Virus record (IMG/VR): IMGVR_UViG_3300021579_000016
Span: 1-43,978 of that record
Strand: one strand, 5' to 3'
Length of the DNA: 43,978 bases
Source of the DNA: a virus
The notes beneath the pieces were generated by a model. That model did no database searches. It worked only from the letters and a program-made list of their open reading frames with translations, and was not told where the DNA came from. Both the position numbers and the translations under genes were made by a program. Positions 1,476 through 43,844 of the stretch are shown in pieces. Every line of letters starts with the position of its first letter. Positions within the stretch are counted from its first letter, which is position 1.

Positions 1476-3302
1476 ATGGTGAAGAATAAAAAAAAGAAGC
1501 GTGAATGGGCAGAATCGTATTTTCCGATAACCGATGAAGATCTGGAATCGGTGGACCGCTTCGGGTTTTACGAAGCCGACGGTCGGTATATTTTTCGCCG
1601 CGTGAAAAAGGATGACATTATTTATATGGGCATTTCCAATTTCACCATGCAAATCCTATTTCTTGTCAAAGGGCAAAATGCAAAACGCATCATTTGCCTC
1701 ACGAACAGCGACGGATATTCTGTTACGGCGGATTTCGGCATCGAGGAGCTAATTTCGATGGATAAGTTCAAGTTGAAAACCGAGCGTCAAGGAGATTTCT
1801 TGTTTCAAGGCAGCGCGTCGGACTTGGCACGAATCAAATCGAAACTGTTTAAAAGTGAAAAACATAGTCAAGAAATTGATTATGCGGGACACCAAAAAGG
1901 CGTTTTTGCGCTATCCAATGGCGTGTATAATTACGAAACCAACACTTTTATTGAACTCAACGAGCATGGCATGGTGTCGTTGGAGGATAAAAATTACTTT
2001 CTTTCGCTGCATTCGCCCGACGATGGCGATGCAGGATTGATGAAAATGCTGATGCACCGTCCGTCCACCGTTTCATTTGAAACTTGGTCAAGCCGATTCA
2101 TCAGCGTGTACGGCGATAACGGCAAAATTGGTTTAGCATTCGGTTTAGCAGCGGTATTTGTGGATGTGGTCAAAGAAGCCACGTCGGGCAAAATGCCGAT
2201 GCTTTTTAGTTTCGGTCAAAAAGGGTCAGGCAAAACAACGTTGACAACATCCCTTTTGTGCTTATTTGGCGAGCGGCGGGAGCCGCCCAAATTAGAAGGA
2301 CGGAGTACACCAAAGTCTTATATCCGTTTATTGGCACAAGTATCGAATTTTGTCATCGGCATAGATGAGTATAAAAATAATATTCATCCTGAATTTATCG
2401 GGATGTTAAAAGGTGTACACGATGGCGCAGGGTACGAAAGGGCTAAAATGGATAACAGCAACAAAACGATTTCAACCCCTATTCGCTCCACAATACTTGT
2501 ATCGGGGCAAGAAATTCCCAACTGTGAACCCGCTTTGTTTTCGCGGTTTTTATTGTTAGAGTTTCAAACCTTGAAAAATATACCACAGTTGCAACGAGAC
2601 GCTTATGATGCGTTGGTTTCAATGGAAAACGGCGGCATAACCAACGTTTTATTCGAGATTTTATCAAAAAGAAACCATTTCAAAGAAAAGTACAGGGATA
2701 TGTTTATTGAATCCCGCGCCGAATTACGAAAACTTTACGACGGCAGCGAAACCATTGATAGACAAATCCTGATTGGTGCAAGTATCATTGCCGCCGCCAA
2801 AACATTGGAAAGTGTTTTAAAGCTGCCGTTCCCGTCGACCGAATTGACAACGCTCGTAAGCGCCGCCATCAACCGGCAAACGGCATTGATGTCCACCGCC
2901 GACGAAACGCAACAGTTTTGGGAGACGGTTGCGATGCTACTGTCTCAAAAACAAATTTGTAACGAGAAAGAAATTCGATTCAAGGCGATTGCGTTTACGC
3001 AAAAAGGTGACGAAAAACCCATTTATAATGCGGGTTGGGTGTGCATTCGCTTGAAATACATCTACCCGCTATATCGGGAACGGTTGGTTCGGCAAAATAT
3101 GAAGCCCCTGGATTCGGGGACGTTGGAACAATACCTGAAAGCATCGGCGGCTTGGGATTTGAAAGAATCGGCTAAGAGCCAACGGTTCAAGTTGGCGGGG
3201 AATCCAACGAACGCGCTGTGCTTTTCCCAAAAAGAACTGGTTAGAAATTACGACGTAGATCTAACAGAACACGCGCCGATTGAAATTATCGAACCCGCGT
3301 AA
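1476..3302 (+). CDS. Replicative helicase, AAA+/SF3-like (DUF927/D5-like)
   Basis: A 608-residue ATPase paired with the primase. Walker A is GQKGSGKTT (247-255), Walker B is FVIGIDE (292-298), a sensor-1-like SGQE lies near 343-346, and a candidate arginine finger is in LFSRFLLLEF near 357. This arrangement resembles primase-associated SF3/D5 or DUF927-type helicases rather than DnaB. The N-terminal 200 residues contain a predicted beta-rich region without a recognised motif. Its stop codon is part of a 27-bp perfect inverted repeat that follows. The exact helicase family would need profile searches. Confidence 0.8.
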   Translation: MVKNKKKKREWAESYFPITDEDLESVDRFGFYEADGRYIFRRVKKDDIIYMGISNFTMQILFLVKGQNAKRIICLTNSDGYSVTADFGIEELISMDKFKLKTERQGDFLFQGSASDLARIKSKLFKSEKHSQEIDYAGHQKGVFALSNGVYNYETNTFIELNEHGMVSLEDKNYFLSLHSPDDGDAGLMKMLMHRPSTVSFETWSSRFISVYGDNGKIGLAFGLAAVFVDVVKEATSGKMPMLFSFGQKGSGKTTLTTSLLCLFGERREPPKLEGRSTPKSYIRLLAQVSNFVIGIDEYKNNIHPEFIGMLKGVHDGAGYERAKMDNSNKTISTPIRSTILVSGQEIPNCEPALFSRFLLLEFQTLKNIPQLQRDAYDALVSMENGGITNVLFEILSKRNHFKEKYRDMFIESRAELRKLYDGSETIDRQILIGASIIAAAKTLESVLKLPFPSTELTTLVSAAINRQTALMSTADETQQFWETVAMLLSQKQICNEKEIRFKAIAFTQKGDEKPIYNAGWVCIRLKYIYPLYRERLVRQNMKPLDSGTLEQYLKASAAWDLKESAKSQRFKLAGNPTNALCFSQKELVRNYDVDLTEHAPIEIIEPA

Positions 3303-3988: not shown

Positions 3989-6496
3989 ATGGGGCAAAGC
4001 TACGGAGTTGCCCCATCATTTACAACTTTTATGCAAGAAAATATTGATGCGTCCCCGCTAACATGGGACGACGTAGGCAACTTGCTGGGATATGAGATAG
4101 ACTCGAATAAGCTAAAAATGAAGGTCTATCACCATAACCAAAAAGCAGGGACTAATTTTCAATGGAAAAGGGGCGGCATCGTTGCACAATCCGAAGCGGA
4201 TGCTTTTCTAATAGGCATCGGTAGGAGCGATTTGGCTACTAAATCGGAAGCGAATCCACCTGTTCAAAAGTTGAGCGATTTTGAACAGCAGATTGAGCGA
4301 TTAGAGCGAGATTTGAACGCCGAACGATACAAGTGTTCCGATTTGAACGAGGCGTTGAGCGACGAGCGTTCAAAATTGGAACGACTTGAACAGCAACGGC
4401 TTAAACTTGAACGAGATTTGAACGCATCGGTTCAAAAGTGTTCAGATTTGAACAACCAAGTTCAAAAAAGTTCAACTCTTGAACAGCAGTTGAATAAGAG
4501 TGTTCAAAAGTGTTCAGATTTTGAACGGCAGTTGAACGCTTCGGTTCAAAAGTGTTCAGATTTTGAACGGCAGTTGAACGCATCGGTTCAAAAGTGTTCA
4601 AATCTTGAACAGCAGTTGAATAAGGCTGTTCAAAATCTGAACACTTTTGAACAGCAGTTGAACGCCGAACGCTCCAAGTCGCTCAAATCTGAACAGCGCG
4701 TTCAAAGTTTGAGCAAAGATTTGAGCGATTTGAGCAACGAGCGTTCAAAGTTTGAACAGACCGTTCAAACTTTGAACGCTCACTTGAACGATTCTGAACA
4801 GCGCGTACAACGGGCAAATGACGATTTAGAAAATTTGTACAATCAATTGAAAGATGCGGAGCAGTTGAACAACGATTGCAATAACAAATTGCGAATCAAT
4901 GAATTGACAATACAAGGTTTAACGGATAAATGGAATGCTGCAAAAGAATGGAAGGAAAAAGCCGCGCAATTGCAATTGGAAAGGGATGCTTTAATGACGA
5001 AAGGCAGCGATGCCAATAGTAATTTGGTTGCGCTCTCCAAAGATAACGAATCCCTAAGAAAAGAAGTTGAACGGCATTTGAGCGATTTGAGCGATTTGAA
5101 CGCCCGTTTAGACGCATCGGTTCAAAGTGTTCAAAAGTTGAACGCCGATTTGAACAACGAGCGTTCAAATCGCTCAAATCTGAACGGCGAGTTCAAATTG
5201 GCTCAAATCGCGCTTCAAAATGCGGAACAACGGATTCAAACGTTGAACGATGCCTTGAACAAAAGTGAACAGGAAGTTCAAACGTTGAACGATGCACGGT
5301 TCAATTTGCTCTCCAAAGGCTCAAATGCCGACGTTGAATTGGCGAATTTGGGGCGTGAAAACGAACGATTGAGGGCAGATTTGGAGAAAGTGAGCAAAGA
5401 ATTGGATGGACACAGGGTTGGGGCAGCATTAAATGGTCAAAACATTCAGGAACAGGAAACTGAAATACATACCCTGCTTGATAAAAACAAGCATTTGGGT
5501 CACGAAAACCAAGTATTAAGGGAACGGAATGGACGGTTACAAGAAGAATTGGACAGATTTAAAGAGTTTAGACAAAAATACGTGGATTTAAAGGAACAAT
5601 GGGACACAATGAAAATGGACATGGCTGAAAAAGCATCCGATGTCTATGCCTTCATTGCCCGGCACGGACGGATGGTCGGCACGGCAGCCGAACTGTCAGG
5701 ATTCTTTCGGTGCATATTAGGCATTACGGAATCGGTCTTTTTCTACTTTCTTTTGGAAAAGACAGGGTTTCATTGGTTTATTTCGGGTATTTTAGCGTTG
5801 CTCTTGGCGGCGGCGTTTCAAGGAAAGCTCTTAGCGGTTTCATTGGAAGCGGCGGCGGATGTGGCGGTGAATCGGGTGATTGATTGGGCGTTGGACATAT
5901 TTGCAATCGCTTTCACGGCAATTTTGTTGGCGCTGGCGGTCAAAATCAGCCTCGAAACGCGGCTCGGCATCCACAATGCTTATCCTGTTTCGATTGTGGA
6001 TTCTGCGAAAGTGCGCGTCATCAAGGAACGATATGATGATTCCACAAACTTAGCGTTAGACCGATTTAAATTAGACACGAACGTTGCGAGAAACAATTAC
6101 AGGAAAAGCATCAGCGTCGAATCGAGAAAAATAGATAAATGGAGTACAGAAGAAGATAAAGTTTGGATTAGTAGCCAAAATGAAAAAGATAGTTTGGCGA
6201 TGGTCAAAATTTGTGACGCTGCCGACAAACGGAAATTGGGTAAAATTACCCATTTCAAAACGGCTTATGAGGATGAATGCAAAATGATACCGAACATCAT
6301 TTGCAACGATTACGGAAACATGTCTTATTTTTTAGATATGATTTCGATTGCATTTATAACGATTTCGGCGTTGGCGGTGGCAATTTACAAGAAAAAAACG
6401 GAACAAGAGCCGCGCATCGAGTCCATTCCGATGCGCATTTGGGCGAAATGGAGTAGGGAATTTTGGGAATGTATTGAAAAATGGTTTGGGATATGA
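3989..6496 (+). CDS. Large coiled-coil protein with C-terminal membrane segments
   Basis: An 835-residue protein. Residues 1-80 form a small globular domain (possible helix-turn-helix near 25-55). About residues 90-540 are coiled coil, including 14-residue units such as LNASVQKCSDFERQ repeated four to six times. Hydrophobic helices follow near 565-650, and a last one lies near 775-795. This suggests a long membrane-anchored rod. The gene is remarkable at the DNA level: at least 40 copies of TTGAAC or its complement GTTCAA lie within 1.05 kb. It overlaps the next gene by ATGA, implying translational coupling. I cannot name a family. It is not the tape measure, which is encoded at 22406. Confidence 0.75.
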   Translation: MGQSYGVAPSFTTFMQENIDASPLTWDDVGNLLGYEIDSNKLKMKVYHHNQKAGTNFQWKRGGIVAQSEADAFLIGIGRSDLATKSEANPPVQKLSDFEQQIERLERDLNAERYKCSDLNEALSDERSKLERLEQQRLKLERDLNASVQKCSDLNNQVQKSSTLEQQLNKSVQKCSDFERQLNASVQKCSDFERQLNASVQKCSNLEQQLNKAVQNLNTFEQQLNAERSKSLKSEQRVQSLSKDLSDLSNERSKFEQTVQTLNAHLNDSEQRVQRANDDLENLYNQLKDAEQLNNDCNNKLRINELTIQGLTDKWNAAKEWKEKAAQLQLERDALMTKGSDANSNLVALSKDNESLRKEVERHLSDLSDLNARLDASVQSVQKLNADLNNERSNRSNLNGEFKLAQIALQNAEQRIQTLNDALNKSEQEVQTLNDARFNLLSKGSNADVELANLGRENERLRADLEKVSKELDGHRVGAALNGQNIQEQETEIHTLLDKNKHLGHENQVLRERNGRLQEELDRFKEFRQKYVDLKEQWDTMKMDMAEKASDVYAFIARHGRMVGTAAELSGFFRCILGITESVFFYFLLEKTGFHWFISGILALLLAAAFQGKLLAVSLEAAADVAVNRVIDWALDIFAIAFTAILLALAVKISLETRLGIHNAYPVSIVDSAKVRVIKERYDDSTNLALDRFKLDTNVARNNYRKSISVESRKIDKWSTEEDKVWISSQNEKDSLAMVKICDAADKRKLGKITHFKTAYEDECKMIPNIICNDYGNMSYFLDMISIAFITISALAVAIYKKKTEQEPRIESIPMRIWAKWSREFWECIEKWFGI
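4262..5304. repeat. Dense GTTCAA/TTGAAC palindromic hexamer array inside the coiled-coil gene
   Basis: By eye I count about 26 TTGAAC and 19 GTTCAA, which are reverse complements, where about 0.5 would be expected by chance. Many form dyads: GTTCAAA-N-TTTGAAC at 4743-4757 and 4763-4777, and GTTCAAAA-N9-TTTTGAAC at 4262-4286, 4502-4526 and 4628-4652. The hexamers occur in four codon contexts (Leu-Asn, Phe/Leu-Glu, Val-Gln, Arg-Ser). TTGAGC/GCTCAA variants are also common. Confidence 0.85.
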
Positions 6497-6915
6497 ACAA
6501 AGATAGAATGGAAATTATGTACAGCAATTCCATGCGTCGGGAGCAACAAAAGAAAGAGGATACCTTATTTCAAGGAGAAATATCGGAGATTGCCTTGCAA
6601 GAAAATGAGGATTTGCTTCAACTTTACTTAGAGCGTTCTGAAGCGATGCCTGTGCAACCGTCGTATGTGGAGCGATTCAAATGGGAAGTCAAACAGCTCA
6701 TAGCCCGAAATAAAATAGCAGATGCCATTTATCGCTTAGGCGATTATCAGAAAGAACAAAAAAATGAAGAATTGTCTCATGCGATTCTTTTGGTGTCTGC
6801 ATCGTTGATGCGCTTGCAGTGGGAAGAAATGTCGGGCACGGTTACTTCCGAAAGTTTTCATATAGAAAAAAATAAGATTGCCGTAACTGTGCTACAGATT
6901 TTAAAGTTGCTATAA
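6493..6915 (+). CDS. Helical soluble protein of unknown function
   Basis: About 140 residues, charged and mostly helical (many Glu, Lys, Gln and Leu), with no membrane segment. I prefer the ATG at 6493 because it overlaps the previous stop as ATGA; an in-frame ATG lies 12 bases upstream. It sits between the coiled-coil membrane protein and a run of tiny membrane proteins, so it may be a cytoplasmic partner of those. No domain recognised. Confidence 0.65.
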   Translation: MNKDRMEIMYSNSMRREQQKKEDTLFQGEISEIALQENEDLLQLYLERSEAMPVQPSYVERFKWEVKQLIARNKIADAIYRLGDYQKEQKNEELSHAILLVSASLMRLQWEEMSGTVTSESFHIEKNKIAVTVLQILKLL

Positions 6916-35396: not shown

Positions 35397-35515
35397 ATTT
35401 GACGGTTGTTTGACGCAACAAGGTTTGCACGCATACAACTAATTGATAGTCAATGTGTTTTTATTTGACGGTTATTTGACACCAATTTGTTGAGACTAAC
35501 AAATTGGTTGTCAAA
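35392..35515. other. Candidate attP: arm-type repeats and core site
   Basis: A 23-base direct repeat with one mismatch (35392-35414, 35458-35480) contains paired TTTGAC half-sites 11 bp apart. Immediately beside it lies ACCAATTTGTT-GAGACT-AACAAATTGGT (35481-35508), perfect 11-bp arms around a 6-bp spacer, the geometry of a tyrosine recombinase core. GTCAAA at 35510-35515 mirrors the half-site. The site touches the 3' end of the integrase gene. Confidence 0.6.
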
Positions 35516-36641
35516 TGCCCGCCATCTTCCGAATTGCCGTAAAATCTTCCAACCCCAGTTTCCGCAGGTACGCGAAAGATTGTTCGGGGCTACTGTGTCC
35601 TGCCTGTTTCATTAATTCCAGGATACCGATGCCCGTATCCTTCCCCTCCAAATACTGAATTGAAAAACCCGTATGCTTCCAACTATATAAGTGGTATTTG
35701 CCCTGAATACCCAATGCTTGTATCGCTGCTAAATTCGCATTATACCACCAATGTTCGCTCACGCGCTCGGTGGATGGCAGTCCATCGCGCCCGACAACAT
35801 AAAAATCGCTGCTATAGTCCCGTAGATTCAGGGTTTGTAACACCGATTGGAACGCCGTCGGAATCGCCACGTAATAGAATTTTGCATTTTTGGTATTGGC
35901 GGAGCGTAAGCGTATTTGCCAACGGTCAAAGTCAATGTCTCCGATTTTGAGGTTGCGCAAAGAAGCTGGACGCATCAAACAATAGAAAATCCATTGAATT
36001 GCAATCCACAAATAGGGACGGTTTTCGAGTATCCATTCTTTCATGCGCACGACATCATCGCGGCGATACCAGTCTGCGGATTCCGATTCGCCGTCCAATG
36101 TTTCCGTGAGTTTAAACGGATTGGTTTTTAAAAGTTTAAATTTGACGGCTCGGTTAAGCAAACAATTAAACGTTGCGCGGTAATTGTTCACTGTGACGGG
36201 ATTCAAGCCATCATTTCTCAGGGAATCTAAGAATCGTTCCGCTGTGGATTCGTCTATTCGTTGAATTTTATTCAACACGCACCAATCATTGAGGCAAAGC
36301 AACTGCGATTCAAACTGTTGAAACGTTTTTTGATTCTTGAAAACGCTTTTCCGATTGTCCAACACTTCAAATGCCTTTTTAACAACGTCGGCTTTTACTG
36401 TCGGACGCGCCGATGTGGGCGGCGGCATGAAGGCAGCTTTTTCAATCGCTATAATAATGGATTCGGCAGCCGCTAAACGGGCTTTGGATGTGGAAAGGTT
36501 CGGGACGCGCATTTTCATTTTGCGCGGTGGCGATTCGGCAGAATAATATTGCACGAACCATTGAACCGACAAGGAAAGGGATTTGGGGTAGATGCCTACA
36601 ATTCTACCTGCGGTTTGGATAGGCAAATTTTTTTTATCCAT
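35511..36641 (-). CDS. int: Tyrosine integrase
   Basis: A 376-residue site-specific recombinase. The N-terminal 80 residues probably bind arm sites, about 95-185 are the SAM-like core-binding domain, and the catalytic domain follows. Visible catalytic positions are R224 (LMRPASLRNL), a beta-hairpin lysine near 251-254, the YSWKHTG motif (319-325, with Lys in place of the usual second Arg and Tyr in place of the His), H349 in GHSS, and nucleophile Y358 (AYLRKL). The Lys variant is common in Bacteroidota integrases. It would recombine the circular phage at the attP-like site beside its 3' end. Confidence 0.9.
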   Translation of the reverse strand: MDKKNLPIQTAGRIVGIYPKSLSLSVQWFVQYYSAESPPRKMKMRVPNLSTSKARLAAAESIIIAIEKAAFMPPPTSARPTVKADVVKKAFEVLDNRKSVFKNQKTFQQFESQLLCLNDWCVLNKIQRIDESTAERFLDSLRNDGLNPVTVNNYRATFNCLLNRAVKFKLLKTNPFKLTETLDGESESADWYRRDDVVRMKEWILENRPYLWIAIQWIFYCLMRPASLRNLKIGDIDFDRWQIRLRSANTKNAKFYYVAIPTAFQSVLQTLNLRDYSSDFYVVGRDGLPSTERVSEHWWYNANLAAIQALGIQGKYHLYSWKHTGFSIQYLEGKDTGIGILELMKQAGHSSPEQSFAYLRKLGLEDFTAIRKMAGI

Positions 36642-36698
36642 GTTACCAATTTTTTTGGCGAAACATGGTAGATGAGACCTTTGGGTGCGACCGAATTG

Positions 36699-36741
36699 AA
36701 ACGCCGTAAAACATTGATTTTCAATATTTTACGGCGTTTTT
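36699..36741. other. Stem-loop in the integrase upstream region
   Basis: A 13-bp perfect stem (36699-36711 with 36727-36739), the right arm continuing into T5, with ATTGA/TCAAT in the loop. Read rightward it could be a terminator; read leftward it lies in the integrase leader. Confidence 0.5.
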
Positions 36742-37270
36742 AAACAATTTGTAGCAAGGACAGGACTTTCTACCATGTGCGTAACTAATTGTTTCTCAAT
36801 GCTTTAAAACGGTCGCAGTTGGTTTTTATTGCGCGGCTGTGACCGACCACTTGCCTCGCGGCGCAAAGGCTGTGCCAAATAAGATTCCAGCGAAACGCAG
36901 AATCCACAAACAATATATGCCTATCCCCTTTTCCATTACCAAACAGCCTTTTCATTTTTCATCCCCGCCCTTTTTTGACCCTTGAAAAATGTAAGCACGT
37001 TGCATTTGCTATTTTTCAGCAATTTTACCAAAGACATGTTTTAGTACATCGCACATCAAAATAAGCGAAATTTGAGCCGTTTTTGTGCGAAATAAGGCTA
37101 TTTTTCGTTGCACTTTAAATTAATAAGCCAAATTAAATTTGGCATCAATTGTTACGTTTTTGGTAGCCAAATTATATTTTGCGCCTATTTTGAGGTGTTT
37201 TAGCCGTAAATTACAGATAATTACACTACTCTAAACAATGAATCCATATAAAAGTATGTAAAAATATAAT

Positions 37271-37293
37271 TTATCCATATATTATATGGATAA
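37271..37293. repeat. 23-bp palindrome with two DnaA-box-like motifs
   Basis: TTATCCATATA-T-TATATGGATAA is a perfect palindrome. Each arm starts with TTATCCATA, one base from the DnaA box TTATCCACA. Confidence 0.6.
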
Positions 37294-37577
37294 GCAGTAA
37301 CGCAAAGCGTCCATAAGGAGCAATTTGCAGTACAAAAGCGCAAAACAATACAAATACATGCCAAATAATATATTGAATTATATTAAAATTACCAAATTGC
37401 CAAAATGCGCAAATTAGTTATATTTGTTTTTGCAATATTTTCAATATTTAATTTGGCAAACAAATTGTTTTGAATTTACAAAAAACAAACAAAAACAGCC
37501 GTATTTAAAACAATTTTCAAATACGAATAAGAAAATAAAAAATATGTTTTGGGGTTGCGCGGTTTCAAAAAGCATTG

Positions 37578-37585
37578 TATTTTTG
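37578..37585 (+). promoter_or_regulatory. -7 box of the initiator tRNA gene
   Basis: TATTTTTG followed by C, an exact TANNTTTGY match ending 9 bases before the tRNA's first base. This places the transcription start almost at the tRNA 5' end. Confidence 0.6.
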
Positions 37586-37594
37586 CGGCACAAT

Positions 37595-37665
37595 AGCGCG
37601 ATGGAGTAAAGGCAACTTACGGGGCTCATAACCCCGTGTTCCGAGTTCGAGTCTCGGTTGCGCCA
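37595..37665 (+). tRNA. Initiator tRNA-fMet (anticodon CAT)
   Basis: A 71-base cloverleaf with all arms. The acceptor stem has A1-C72 unpaired, then six pairs. The D-stem GAGT/ACTT contains A11-U24, and the D-loop is AAAGGCA. Anticodon stem CGGGG/CCCCG with loop CTCATAA (anticodon 37627-37629). T-stem CCGAG/CTCGG with loop TTCGAGT. Three features mark initiators: the 1-72 mismatch, purine 11-pyrimidine 24, and three consecutive G-C pairs next to the anticodon loop. Discriminator A; CCA not encoded. The small D-loop and the G6-U67 wobble differ from typical host initiators, so this looks phage-owned. Confidence 0.85.
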
Positions 37666-37677
37666 CAAGAAAAACAC

Positions 37678-37830
37678 AGGGATTCTTTTTTGGAGTGCTT
37701 CGCGCTGATGGAATCCCTCAAGAGAAATACAGGCGTTCCGATGGGTGAACGCAGAACAAGGCAAGGATGCGCGGAAACTAAATAAGCCGCGTTTCGTGGA
37801 TTTCGGTTTACTCCTTGCCTTTATTTTTTC
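37678..37830 (+). ncRNA. Candidate structured RNA downstream of the initiator tRNA
   Basis: Three stems follow the tRNA without a coding frame. They are GGGATTC/GAATCCC (37679-37685, 37711-37717), GCGTTC/GAACGC (37733-37738, 37747-37752) and AAGGCAAGGA/TCCTTGCCTT (37758-37767, 37812-37821). The last is followed by TTATTTTTT, a terminator shape. A small RNA co-transcribed with the tRNA and released by RNase P/Z processing is possible. Confidence 0.5.
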
Positions 37831-37966
37831 GTCATGCTCCAATAAAACGAGGATTGAAACATATTAGGATTTTTCCTAATTTCTTTTTCGCGGTCTTCCC
37901 TTATCACAAGGCATCCGACCGCAAATTGCTAACAGCCGTGTCCGACAAAACGAGGTTCGACGGTCT

Positions 37967-38000
37967 CGAAAAGCCATTCCGTAACAGGGATGGCTTTTCG
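37967..38000 (+). terminator. Hairpin upstream of the iteron array
   Basis: CGAAAAGCCAT/ATGGCTTTTCG arms (37967-37977 with 37990-38000), followed by CGTTTC. Its end resembles the end of the terminator at 9739. An additional GCGGTC/GACCGC stem lies just upstream (37890-37922). Confidence 0.6.
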
Positions 38001-38052
38001 CGTTTCTAATACCCTGCGATTCGGGGGAATTAGAAACGCGGATTGTGGACTC

Positions 38053-38780
38053 CCTACAACCGCCTACAAAATGCCCTACATCCGACAAATCTCCCTACAA
38101 AACCCGCGATAAAACGCTACATTTTCAACATCCCCAAAACACCCCGTAACACATTGAAAATCAATGAATTACAACTAAAATTATAAAAATACTGATTTTC
38201 CTATGAAAAACACCATCCTACAAGCCCTACAAACCCTACAAAAATGTAAATGATTGATTATTAATGATTTATCTTATTATTTCTTGTAGGGAGTTGTTGT
38301 TTTTTGTAGGGAGTTGTAGGGACTTGTAGGGAGTTGTAGGGGATGTAGGGCGTGTAGGGAGGCAAAACAGCGATGCCAGAAAAAAGTGTTTTTTGATATA
38401 AAAGATTGATAATCAATGCTTTAAGTGCATTTTTACAAAAATACATTATTTATAATTTATTGATTATCAATGATTTGTAAAAATGTATTTTGATATTTTC
38501 GTTAACTTCGTTAACTTCGTAAACTAAAAAGACGGGATTCTGCACAAATGTAAAGAATGCCGTCTTTTTGAACGGCGCGTCCTACACATCCTACAAAATG
38601 GGGGCATCCTACAAATCACTCCCTACAAGGCACTACAAAAACGGCATTTGTAGGGCGCAAATCCTACAAGCGTCCTACAAAACCACATCGCATAAATAAT
38701 TGATTTACAATGATTTACACCATGTAAAAAGATTTAATATGCCATTTTGTAGGGTCTGTAGGGTTTGTAGGGACTGTAGG
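38053..38780. repeat. Iteron-like TGTAGG/CCTACA array, candidate replication origin
   Basis: About 25 copies of one hexamer in 730 bases, in five clusters with alternating orientation: CCTACA at 38053-38099 (4) and 38217-38240 (3); TGTAGG at 38285-38358 (7); mainly CCTACA at 38581-38679 (6 plus one inverted); TGTAGG at 38748-38780 (4). Inside clusters, spacing is mostly 9 or 10 bp, close to one helical turn. Full units are often TTGTAGGGA. Together with A/T-rich spacers and dyads this resembles plasmid or phage iterons bound by an initiator protein, but an operator array or partition site is also possible. No gene covers it. Confidence 0.75.
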
Positions 38781-38906
38781 GAGCGTTTTTTGACTTGGGC
38801 AAAAAGTGTGAAAAAAGTGTAAAAACACCTTGTAACTCATTGATTATCAATACTTTATGTTGTTTTTATTTTGAAAAGTGTTATTTGTATCTTATTGATA
38901 ATCAAT
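38405..38906. repeat. Four copies of the dyad ATTGATWATCAAT
   Basis: Exact 13-base copies at 38405-38417, 38459-38471, 38839-38851 and 38894-38906, with weaker relatives near 38153 and 38248. They lie among and beside the TGTAGG clusters and form near-perfect palindromes, so they may bind a second dimeric protein. Confidence 0.7.
38526..38569. other. Hairpin between iteron clusters
   Basis: AAAAAGACGG/CCGTCTTTTT arms with an inner ATTCT/AGAAT pairing. A terminator-like hairpin that could stop transcription through the origin-like region. Confidence 0.6.
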
Positions 38907-38970
38907 GATTTGCGTGATTTATTTTTGATTTTTTTGTTAATATAGTTAACTATTTTTGGGACAAAATGAA

Positions 38971-39005
38971 AATGCCCTGATGAATTCACAATTCATCAGG
39001 GCATT
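38971..39005. terminator. Bidirectional terminator
   Basis: A 16-bp perfect stem (38971-38986 with 38990-39005), 3-base loop, A-run and T-run flanks. It shields the iteron region from the leftward gene that ends at 39024. Confidence 0.9.
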
Positions 39006-39023
39006 TTTATAAAATAAGTCAAT

Positions 39024-39461
39024 TTAGTCAATGGAGAGTTCCGTAGGTATGCCCTCCCAGCAATTTGGGTAGGCAACGAACAATTTTGAATAGCCATTTT
39101 TTGAGCAATAATCATAATGCGATTTGATGTGTTTTTTAACGCTGCCATCCGAACCGTAAAAACCCGTGAACGGCGTTTTGGGAAAATCTGCATTCTTTTT
39201 GGAGTCGAACACCACAAGATACGAAAAAAAGTTTTTTTCAAAAGTGGTTTTCCGCGATTTGCACAATGCTTTCAACGCATCCAAATGAATTGAATCCGAT
39301 TTTGGAGCATACAATTCCATTGTATTGGTGCGCTCCCCAACTTTTTCCGATTTTGTATTGATCAGCTCGAAATAATCCATCGGGTTGATCGGGGGTTTGG
39401 TGGGCGGATTCGCGCATCGAAAAAGGGAACACGCCAAACAGAATAAATATAGGTACCGCAT
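39024..39461 (-). CDS. Exported small protein, possible lysogenic conversion factor
   Basis: A 145-residue protein with a signal peptide-like N-terminus, MRYLYLFCLACSLFRC, followed by ANPPTKPPINP. It may be a lipoprotein attached through C11 or C16, though the lipobox is imperfect. The mature part is a compact alpha/beta domain with two Cys near the end (HYDYCSKNGY, YPNCWEG) that could form a disulphide. It lies beside the cI-like gene, where superinfection exclusion and other lysogenic conversion genes often sit. No family recognised. Confidence 0.6.
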   Translation of the reverse strand: MRYLYLFCLACSLFRCANPPTKPPINPMDYFELINTKSEKVGERTNTMELYAPKSDSIHLDALKALCKSRKTTFEKNFFSYLVVFDSKKNADFPKTPFTGFYGSDGSVKKHIKSHYDYCSKNGYSKLFVAYPNCWEGIPTELSID

Positions 39462-40512: not shown

Positions 40513-40580
40513 GCATCCTTCGGCTAACGGTAAGCCAACCCCGAAAGGGGGAAACAGGGGTTCGACACCTCTAAGATGCG
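40513..40580 (+). ncRNA. tRNA-like element B, anticodon arm replaced by a GAAA hairpin
   Basis: Acceptor GCATCCT (40513-40519) pairs with AAGATGC (40573-40579) except one C-A. D-like arm GGCT-AACGGTA-AGCC (40522-40536) keeps the loop GG. Where the anticodon arm belongs lies CCCC-GAAA-GGGG (40539-40550), a GNRA tetraloop with no anticodon. T-arm AGGGG-TTCGACA-CCTCT (40556-40572) is canonical. The set would fold as a tRNA-like elbow that cannot decode. Confidence 0.65.
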
Positions 40581-41135: not shown

Positions 41136-41199
41136 CCGCCCGAATGGAGATTAGTGGCGATTGAATGAGGGTTCGGGGTTCGATTCCCCGACGGGCGGC
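41136..41199 (+). ncRNA. tRNA-like element C, shortened
   Basis: CCGCCCG (41136-41142) pairs perfectly with CGGGCGG (41192-41198). T-arm CGGGG-TTCGATT-CCCCG (41174-41190) is canonical. The intervening 31 bases are about ten shorter than in a tRNA and contain no anticodon hairpin; a GG is present in AGTGGCGA. It lies directly upstream of two terminator hairpins and the zincin gene. Confidence 0.55.
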
Positions 41200-43802: not shown

Positions 43803-43844
43803 GGCAAAACGGTTCGCGGCTCGGTTCGATTCCGAGTGTTGCCC
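43803..43844 (+). ncRNA. tRNA-like element D, acceptor plus T-arm only
   Basis: GGCAAAA (43803-43809) pairs with TGTTGCC (43837-43843) at six of seven positions. T-arm CTCGG-TTCGATT-CCGAG (43820-43836) is canonical. Only ten bases (CGGTTCGCGG) connect them, so D and anticodon arms are missing. C43844 is the discriminator position, followed by CTAA. The resulting 12-bp minihelix would be a possible substrate for tRNA-processing enzymes. It lies right at the circle junction, upstream of the first gene. Confidence 0.6.

Follow-up and report, generated by a model that had tools for sequence, protein, structure and literature searches.

Initiator tRNAs are charged with methionine by MetRS, which recognises the CAU anticodon and A73, formylated by virtue of an unpaired 1-72 position and the pairs at 2-4, and selected at the ribosomal P site through a GGG/CCC anticodon stem. 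Among six phage tRNAs that we checked, all three initiator hallmarks (an unpaired 1-72, A11-U24 and the GGG/CCC stem) are found in Mycobacterium phage Phox (MF919527; A·C at 1-72), Prevotella phage Lak-B1 (U·U), Bacteroides phage LoVEphage (C·A) and Pseudomonas phage D3 (C·U). The annotated tRNA-fMet of Harbringer and the tRNA of CcrColossus have A11-U24, but their stems are altered and their 1-72 pairs are weak. A search of the accessible literature returned no study dedicated to phage initiator tRNAs. Phages are reported generally to avoid tRNA-fMet where a host VapC targets tRNA-fMet, and evasion through the anticodon loop has been proposed for phage tRNAs (PMC10264068).

The stretch analysed here (the window) is a virus record that looks complete, with a length of 43,978 bases. 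It carries 133-base direct terminal repeats that are 99% alike, and is therefore the genome of a phage and not a prophage flanked by host DNA. To place its host, we made an alignment of the primase (1476-3302) and four homologues from phages, and used it to search species genomes. All 80 of the 80 loci kept belong to Bacteroidota, including Bacteroidales, Sphingobacteriaceae, Runella and Arcicella, and the phage thus probably infects a member of this phylum. The initial annotation had proposed a host without Shine-Dalgarno use. This agrees with the descent of the primase relatives and with the phage starts, which showed no Shine-Dalgarno enrichment (3 of 36 starts versus 2.3 expected at random positions); the sequence upstream of these starts is A/T-rich (71% versus 56% overall). 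The window also encodes, at 6481-6915 on the plus strand, a protein that matches Pfam PF19964 (E 7e-14), the effector-associated domain EAD11, which is usual in bacterial conflict systems. A short-repeat array based on TTGAAC/GTTCAA with a spacing of ~42 nt lies at 4300-5200, within an ORF for an 835-residue coiled-coil-like protein.

ARAGORN called a single tRNA in the whole window, a tRNA-Met(cat) at 37595-37666 on the plus strand, and the Rfam tRNA family (RF00005) matched the same gene at 37595-37665 with 52.6 bits (gathering threshold 29, E 1.3e-8). It is the sole tRNA in the window for both programs. Its parts are as follows:

37595 to 37665, plus strand: tRNA-Met(CAU) of initiator type, 71 nt up to base 73, CCA not encoded (ARAGORN; Rfam RF00005)
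37604 to 37618, plus strand: D arm with A11-U24 (37605 and 37617) and a 7-nt D loop (sequence; Rfam alignment)
37620 to 37636, plus strand: anticodon arm CGGGG-CUCAUAA-CCCCG with G-C pairs 29-41, 30-40 and 31-39 (sequence; host comparison)
37627 to 37629, plus strand: anticodon CAU within the loop CUCAUAA (ARAGORN; sequence)

The tRNA reads AGCGCGA UG GAGU AAAGGCA ACUU A CGGGG CUCAUAA CCCCG UGUU CCGAG UUCGAGU CUCGG UUGCGCC A. Position 1-72 is an unpaired A-C, 11-24 is A-U, and 29-31/39-41 are GGG/CCC, so that the hallmarks claimed in the initial annotation can all be read directly. The acceptor pairs are G-C at 2-71, C-G at 3-70 and G-C at 4-69, base 73 is A, the anticodon stem has five perfect pairs and the T stem is fully paired. 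The gene is intact, and all initiator identity elements are present.

Among the isolates, Phox has a tRNA-Met that shares A1-C72, A11-U24, GGG/CCC and CUCAUAA with the window tRNA and is likewise phage-encoded. Unlike the window gene, it belongs to a cluster of tRNAs, in a phage of 155 kb that infects Actinobacteria, and has an ordinary bacterial initiator-type body. Lak-B1 and LoVEphage are Bacteroidota phages with all three hallmarks and U-U or C-A at 1-72, but their tRNAs have host-like bodies and their genomes are larger. The tRNA-Met of D3, a phage of similar size (56 kb), has C-U at 1-72, A11-U24 and GGG/CCC; it differs in its loop, CCCAUAA, in a tRNA Gly close by and in having no integrase neighbour in the stretch shown. 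The loop of LoVEphage is also changed (AUCAUAG), whereas that of the window tRNA is the unchanged CUCAUAA and gives no sign of anticodon-loop evasion. The tRNA-fMet of Bacteroidota hosts has A11-U24, GGG/CCC, CUCAUAA, an unpaired 1-72 and A73 as well, but carries C or U at position 1, a GAGC...GCUC D arm and a 5-nt variable loop of the AGGUC type, in contrast to the A1, 7-nt D loop and 4-nt UGUU variable loop of the window tRNA.

The initial annotation had considered phage tRNAs to be elongators as a rule and an initiator to be exceptional. This view was not supported, as several isolates carry all hallmarks and ~17% of sampled viral CAU tRNAs combine A11-U24 with an unpaired 1-72. An initiator query matched 376 annotated phage records at E <= 0.001, some of which may not be initiators, and a scan of viral contigs for GGGCTCATAACCC plus a T arm gave at least 120 matches. 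The nearest of 1,266 collected tRNAs is of the viral initiator type (L142), with 83% identity over 71 positions. As judged from its sequence, the window tRNA is thus a divergent new example within a common group of phage initiator-type tRNAs. Within the sample of viral CAU tRNAs, the GGG/CCC stem was lost in 14 of the 18 that keep A11-U24 and an unpaired 1-72 (e.g. L377, L382, L384, L473 and L494).

To judge identity against the likely hosts, we compiled 28 distinct initiators, 19 elongator Met and 18 Ile2 tRNAs from Bacteroidota. A11-U24, GGG/CCC and a 1-72 mismatch of variable type occur in 28 of 28 distinct host initiators, a uniformity that is partly by construction, since this set was collected largely through its GGG/CCC pattern, and A11-U24 together with the 1-72 mismatch then served to sort it. 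Less by construction, neither A11-U24 nor the GGG/CCC stem occurs in any of the 37 elongator Met and Ile2 tRNAs. A position profile, which made no leave-one-out errors, gave the window tRNA a score of 9.6 for initiator, 2.3 for elongator Met and -23.2 for Ile2, compared to 84-103 for those host initiators whose scores were listed. Once the hallmark positions were removed, the scores changed to -3.4 for initiator and 2.6 for elongator Met. The initiator signal is carried by the hallmark positions only, while the remainder of the tRNA is of phage type; since the body without the hallmarks does no better as initiator than as elongator Met, few positions decide the identity. The A1-C72 mismatch itself is absent from the 28 host initiators, all of which have a pyrimidine at position 1.

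These scores bear on whether the window tRNA might function as an elongator Met, or as a lysidine-modified Ile2, despite its hallmarks. Such a function would fit the slight preference of the non-hallmark positions for elongator Met and the 2-4/69-71 pairs, which the window tRNA and host elongator Met have in common. Moreover, A11-U24 together with GGGG/CCCC is seen in phage tRNA-Gln that have a similar body and an identical D arm (L393, L408 and L421), and these two features alone are therefore not diagnostic in phages. However, the full profile prefers initiator and places Ile2 at -23, 1-72 is unpaired, and host elongators lack both A11-U24 and GGG/CCC. Across 103 viral CAU tRNAs, sampled almost without selection, A11-U24 and an unpaired 1-72 were strongly linked (18 of 23 versus 19 of 80; Fisher p = 3e-6). 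The hallmarks co-occur in viral CAU tRNAs and are therefore not independent chance features; this linkage is as expected if selection keeps initiator identity. We consider an elongator function very unlikely, and the assignment as initiator made in the initial annotation agrees with the identity elements of the likely hosts. An origin from tRNA-Gln is not our main reading, since the nearer neighbours are viral initiators.

Upstream of the gene lies a promoter-like box:

37578 to 37585, plus strand: TATTTTTG, matching the Bacteroidota -7 box TANNTTTG and ending 9 nt before base 1 of the tRNA

We identified this box by TANNTTTG, which we take to be the consensus of the Bacteroidota -7 box. The initial annotation had placed it at the expected distance, which is roughly right, although 9 nt is slightly short compared to host tRNA genes with a box, where the distance is mostly 11-25 nt. 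The motif is not enriched across the whole window (47 seen versus 42 expected), and from five plus-strand copies in the 2.4-kb non-coding stretch we estimate a chance of ~4% for a box within a 21-nt window at the right place. TATTTTTG is a plausible promoter element of Bacteroidota type, but as evidence it is weak. The non-coding stretch itself (36641-39024) lies between the integrase and repressor-side genes and contains many TGTAGGG/CCCTACA repeats and ATTGATNATCAAT inverted repeats, which are possibly integrase arm or origin sites.

The neighbouring integrase raises the question of whether the tRNA belongs to the phage or to an attachment site:

35511 to 36641, minus strand: tyrosine integrase (Pfam PF00589 and PF13102), with 0.95 kb between its start codon and the 5' end of the tRNA; the two genes diverge

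If the tRNA were part of the attachment site, the integrase would recombine within it and the carried copy would keep the host initiator gene whole. The short distance to the integrase start codon speaks for this arrangement, as does the GGG/CCC anticodon arm, which is found in 97 of 99 Bacteroidota genomes, mostly as a single copy. In three related prophage records the integrase also adjoins a tRNA (Pro in G043 and G037, Ser in G009). In these three, however, the 3' end of the tRNA points towards the integrase on the same strand, whereas the window tRNA turns its 5' end to the integrase and lies on the opposite strand. The gene is also whole and has its own promoter-like box, and recombination with the host initiators encountered would yield hybrids whose acceptor stems mispair. 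An exact match to the 32-nt 3' half of the tRNA was found in 0 of 84,980 species genomes, and the whole tRNA gave nothing at E <= 0.001 in 395 Bacteroidota genomes, where the strongest matches were local and ~20 nt long. The host copy named in the initial annotation as an alternative source was thus not encountered in either set. As the true host is possibly unsampled, the missing match weakens an attachment-site role without closing the question, and we regard this role as unlikely. Other viral records likewise have an initiator tRNA that is lone and internal. Initiator-type tRNAs in 28 viral records are mostly lone, and a tyrosine integrase was not seen in 18 of these 28, some of which are fragments; such genes therefore exist apart from integration. 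T-arm matches (21 nt, 95%) in dozens of host genomes were considered as an att core and rejected, as they lie in Pro, Arg, His and Glu tRNA clusters and end before the acceptor stem.

The sequence comparisons support a phage-owned tRNA that is no recent copy of a sampled host tRNA. The integrase had no match in the 395 Bacteroidota genomes at E <= 1e-20, a result that is uninformative for want of a positive control, and viral contigs held no close relatives of the integrase or of a 462-residue protein from the structural region. An exact 37-nt stretch of the tRNA was likewise absent from viral contigs, and blastn of the tRNA region against phage records gave no match. With no close relative carrying the tRNA gene, selection on it is not measurable.

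We favour the reading that 37595-37665 is a phage-owned initiator tRNA gene which is expressed, used and of benefit to the phage, and hold it to be somewhat more probable than its negation. Its own Bacteroidota-type promoter would transcribe the gene, host RNase P and RNase Z would trim the transcript, and a host enzyme would add CCA. Host MetRS could then charge the tRNA with methionine via the CAU anticodon, to which A73 is also suited, and host Fmt would be expected to formylate it on account of the unpaired 1-72 and the G-C, C-G and G-C pairs at 2-4/69-71. IF2 would then carry the tRNA to the P site of the ribosome, which should accept its GGG/CCC stem. The likely benefit would be an initiator pool that is topped up or replaced, either during infection or after an attack on host tRNA. 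The initiator arm is mostly single-copy in Bacteroidota genomes, and an extra copy could therefore matter for dose or replacement. Manipulation of translation start by the phage initiator tRNA, as suggested in the initial annotation, is conjecture. If functional, the gene would mean that a Bacteroidota phage supplies its own start tRNA to hosts in which a single initiator gene is the rule and Shine-Dalgarno signals are little used, and it would make it easy to test for protection or enhancement of initiation by phages.

A scan for T arms within acceptor stems revealed three more plus-strand elements in the window, versus ~0.1 in shuffled sequences:

40513 to 40579, plus strand: tRNA-shaped element with acceptor, D arm, CCCC-GAAA-GGGG replacing the anticodon arm, and T arm (scan; missed by ARAGORN and Rfam)
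41136 to 41198, plus strand: T arm on which the acceptor stem CCGCCCG/CGGGCGG is stacked; the interior is short and irregular, and an anticodon arm is missing (scan)
43803 to 43843, plus strand: acceptor/T-arm minihelix with 10 nt replacing the D and anticodon arms, flanked by a terminator-like hairpin and a run of T (scan)

Thermodynamic folding supported the T-arm stems of 41136-41198 and 43803-43843, although neither fold is exceptional (z -0.2 and 0.5). A low-threshold Rfam search of the 34-44 kb region gave only low-complexity noise besides the tRNA and a short T-arm match. The window thus holds four tRNA-shaped elements on one strand, and decoding is possible for the initiator alone.

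The initiator tRNA could be a passenger, namely the one tRNA still intact in a phage set that is decaying, with no present benefit. The three anticodon-less elements in this genome would fit, and so would the frequency of tRNA relics in viral contigs (74 versus ~6 expected); as other viral contigs with tRNAs also commonly contain relic-like elements, we take decay as the default for them. Against a mere passenger, the anticodon-stem pairs, the T stem, the hallmarks and the promoter-like box have all been kept, despite a body that has diverged from every host tRNA seen, and we judge this explanation to be unlikely as well. Less likely still, the three elements may form a functional set of tRNA mimics, which would either mark sites between genes for processing by RNase P/Z or divert defences that target tRNA, while the initiator tRNA would serve as a replacement.

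The count of 74 T-arm/acceptor elements, versus ~6 in shuffles, refers to viral contigs L054-L173 and L344-L556 outside called tRNAs; 22 of the 74 have <25 nt inside. These T-arm/acceptor elements are either relics or functional minihelices. A further tRNA-like RNA of ~105 nt, without a match in Rfam, is conserved in Porphyromonas-type phages (L042:742-875, L043:5398-5525 and L048:245-378, also L049 and L050). It consists of a GGCAAG...CTTGCC acceptor, a hairpin with the conserved loop GTATTWGGGTCG, a second hairpin and a T arm, the stem of which varies by compensatory changes across the five loci.
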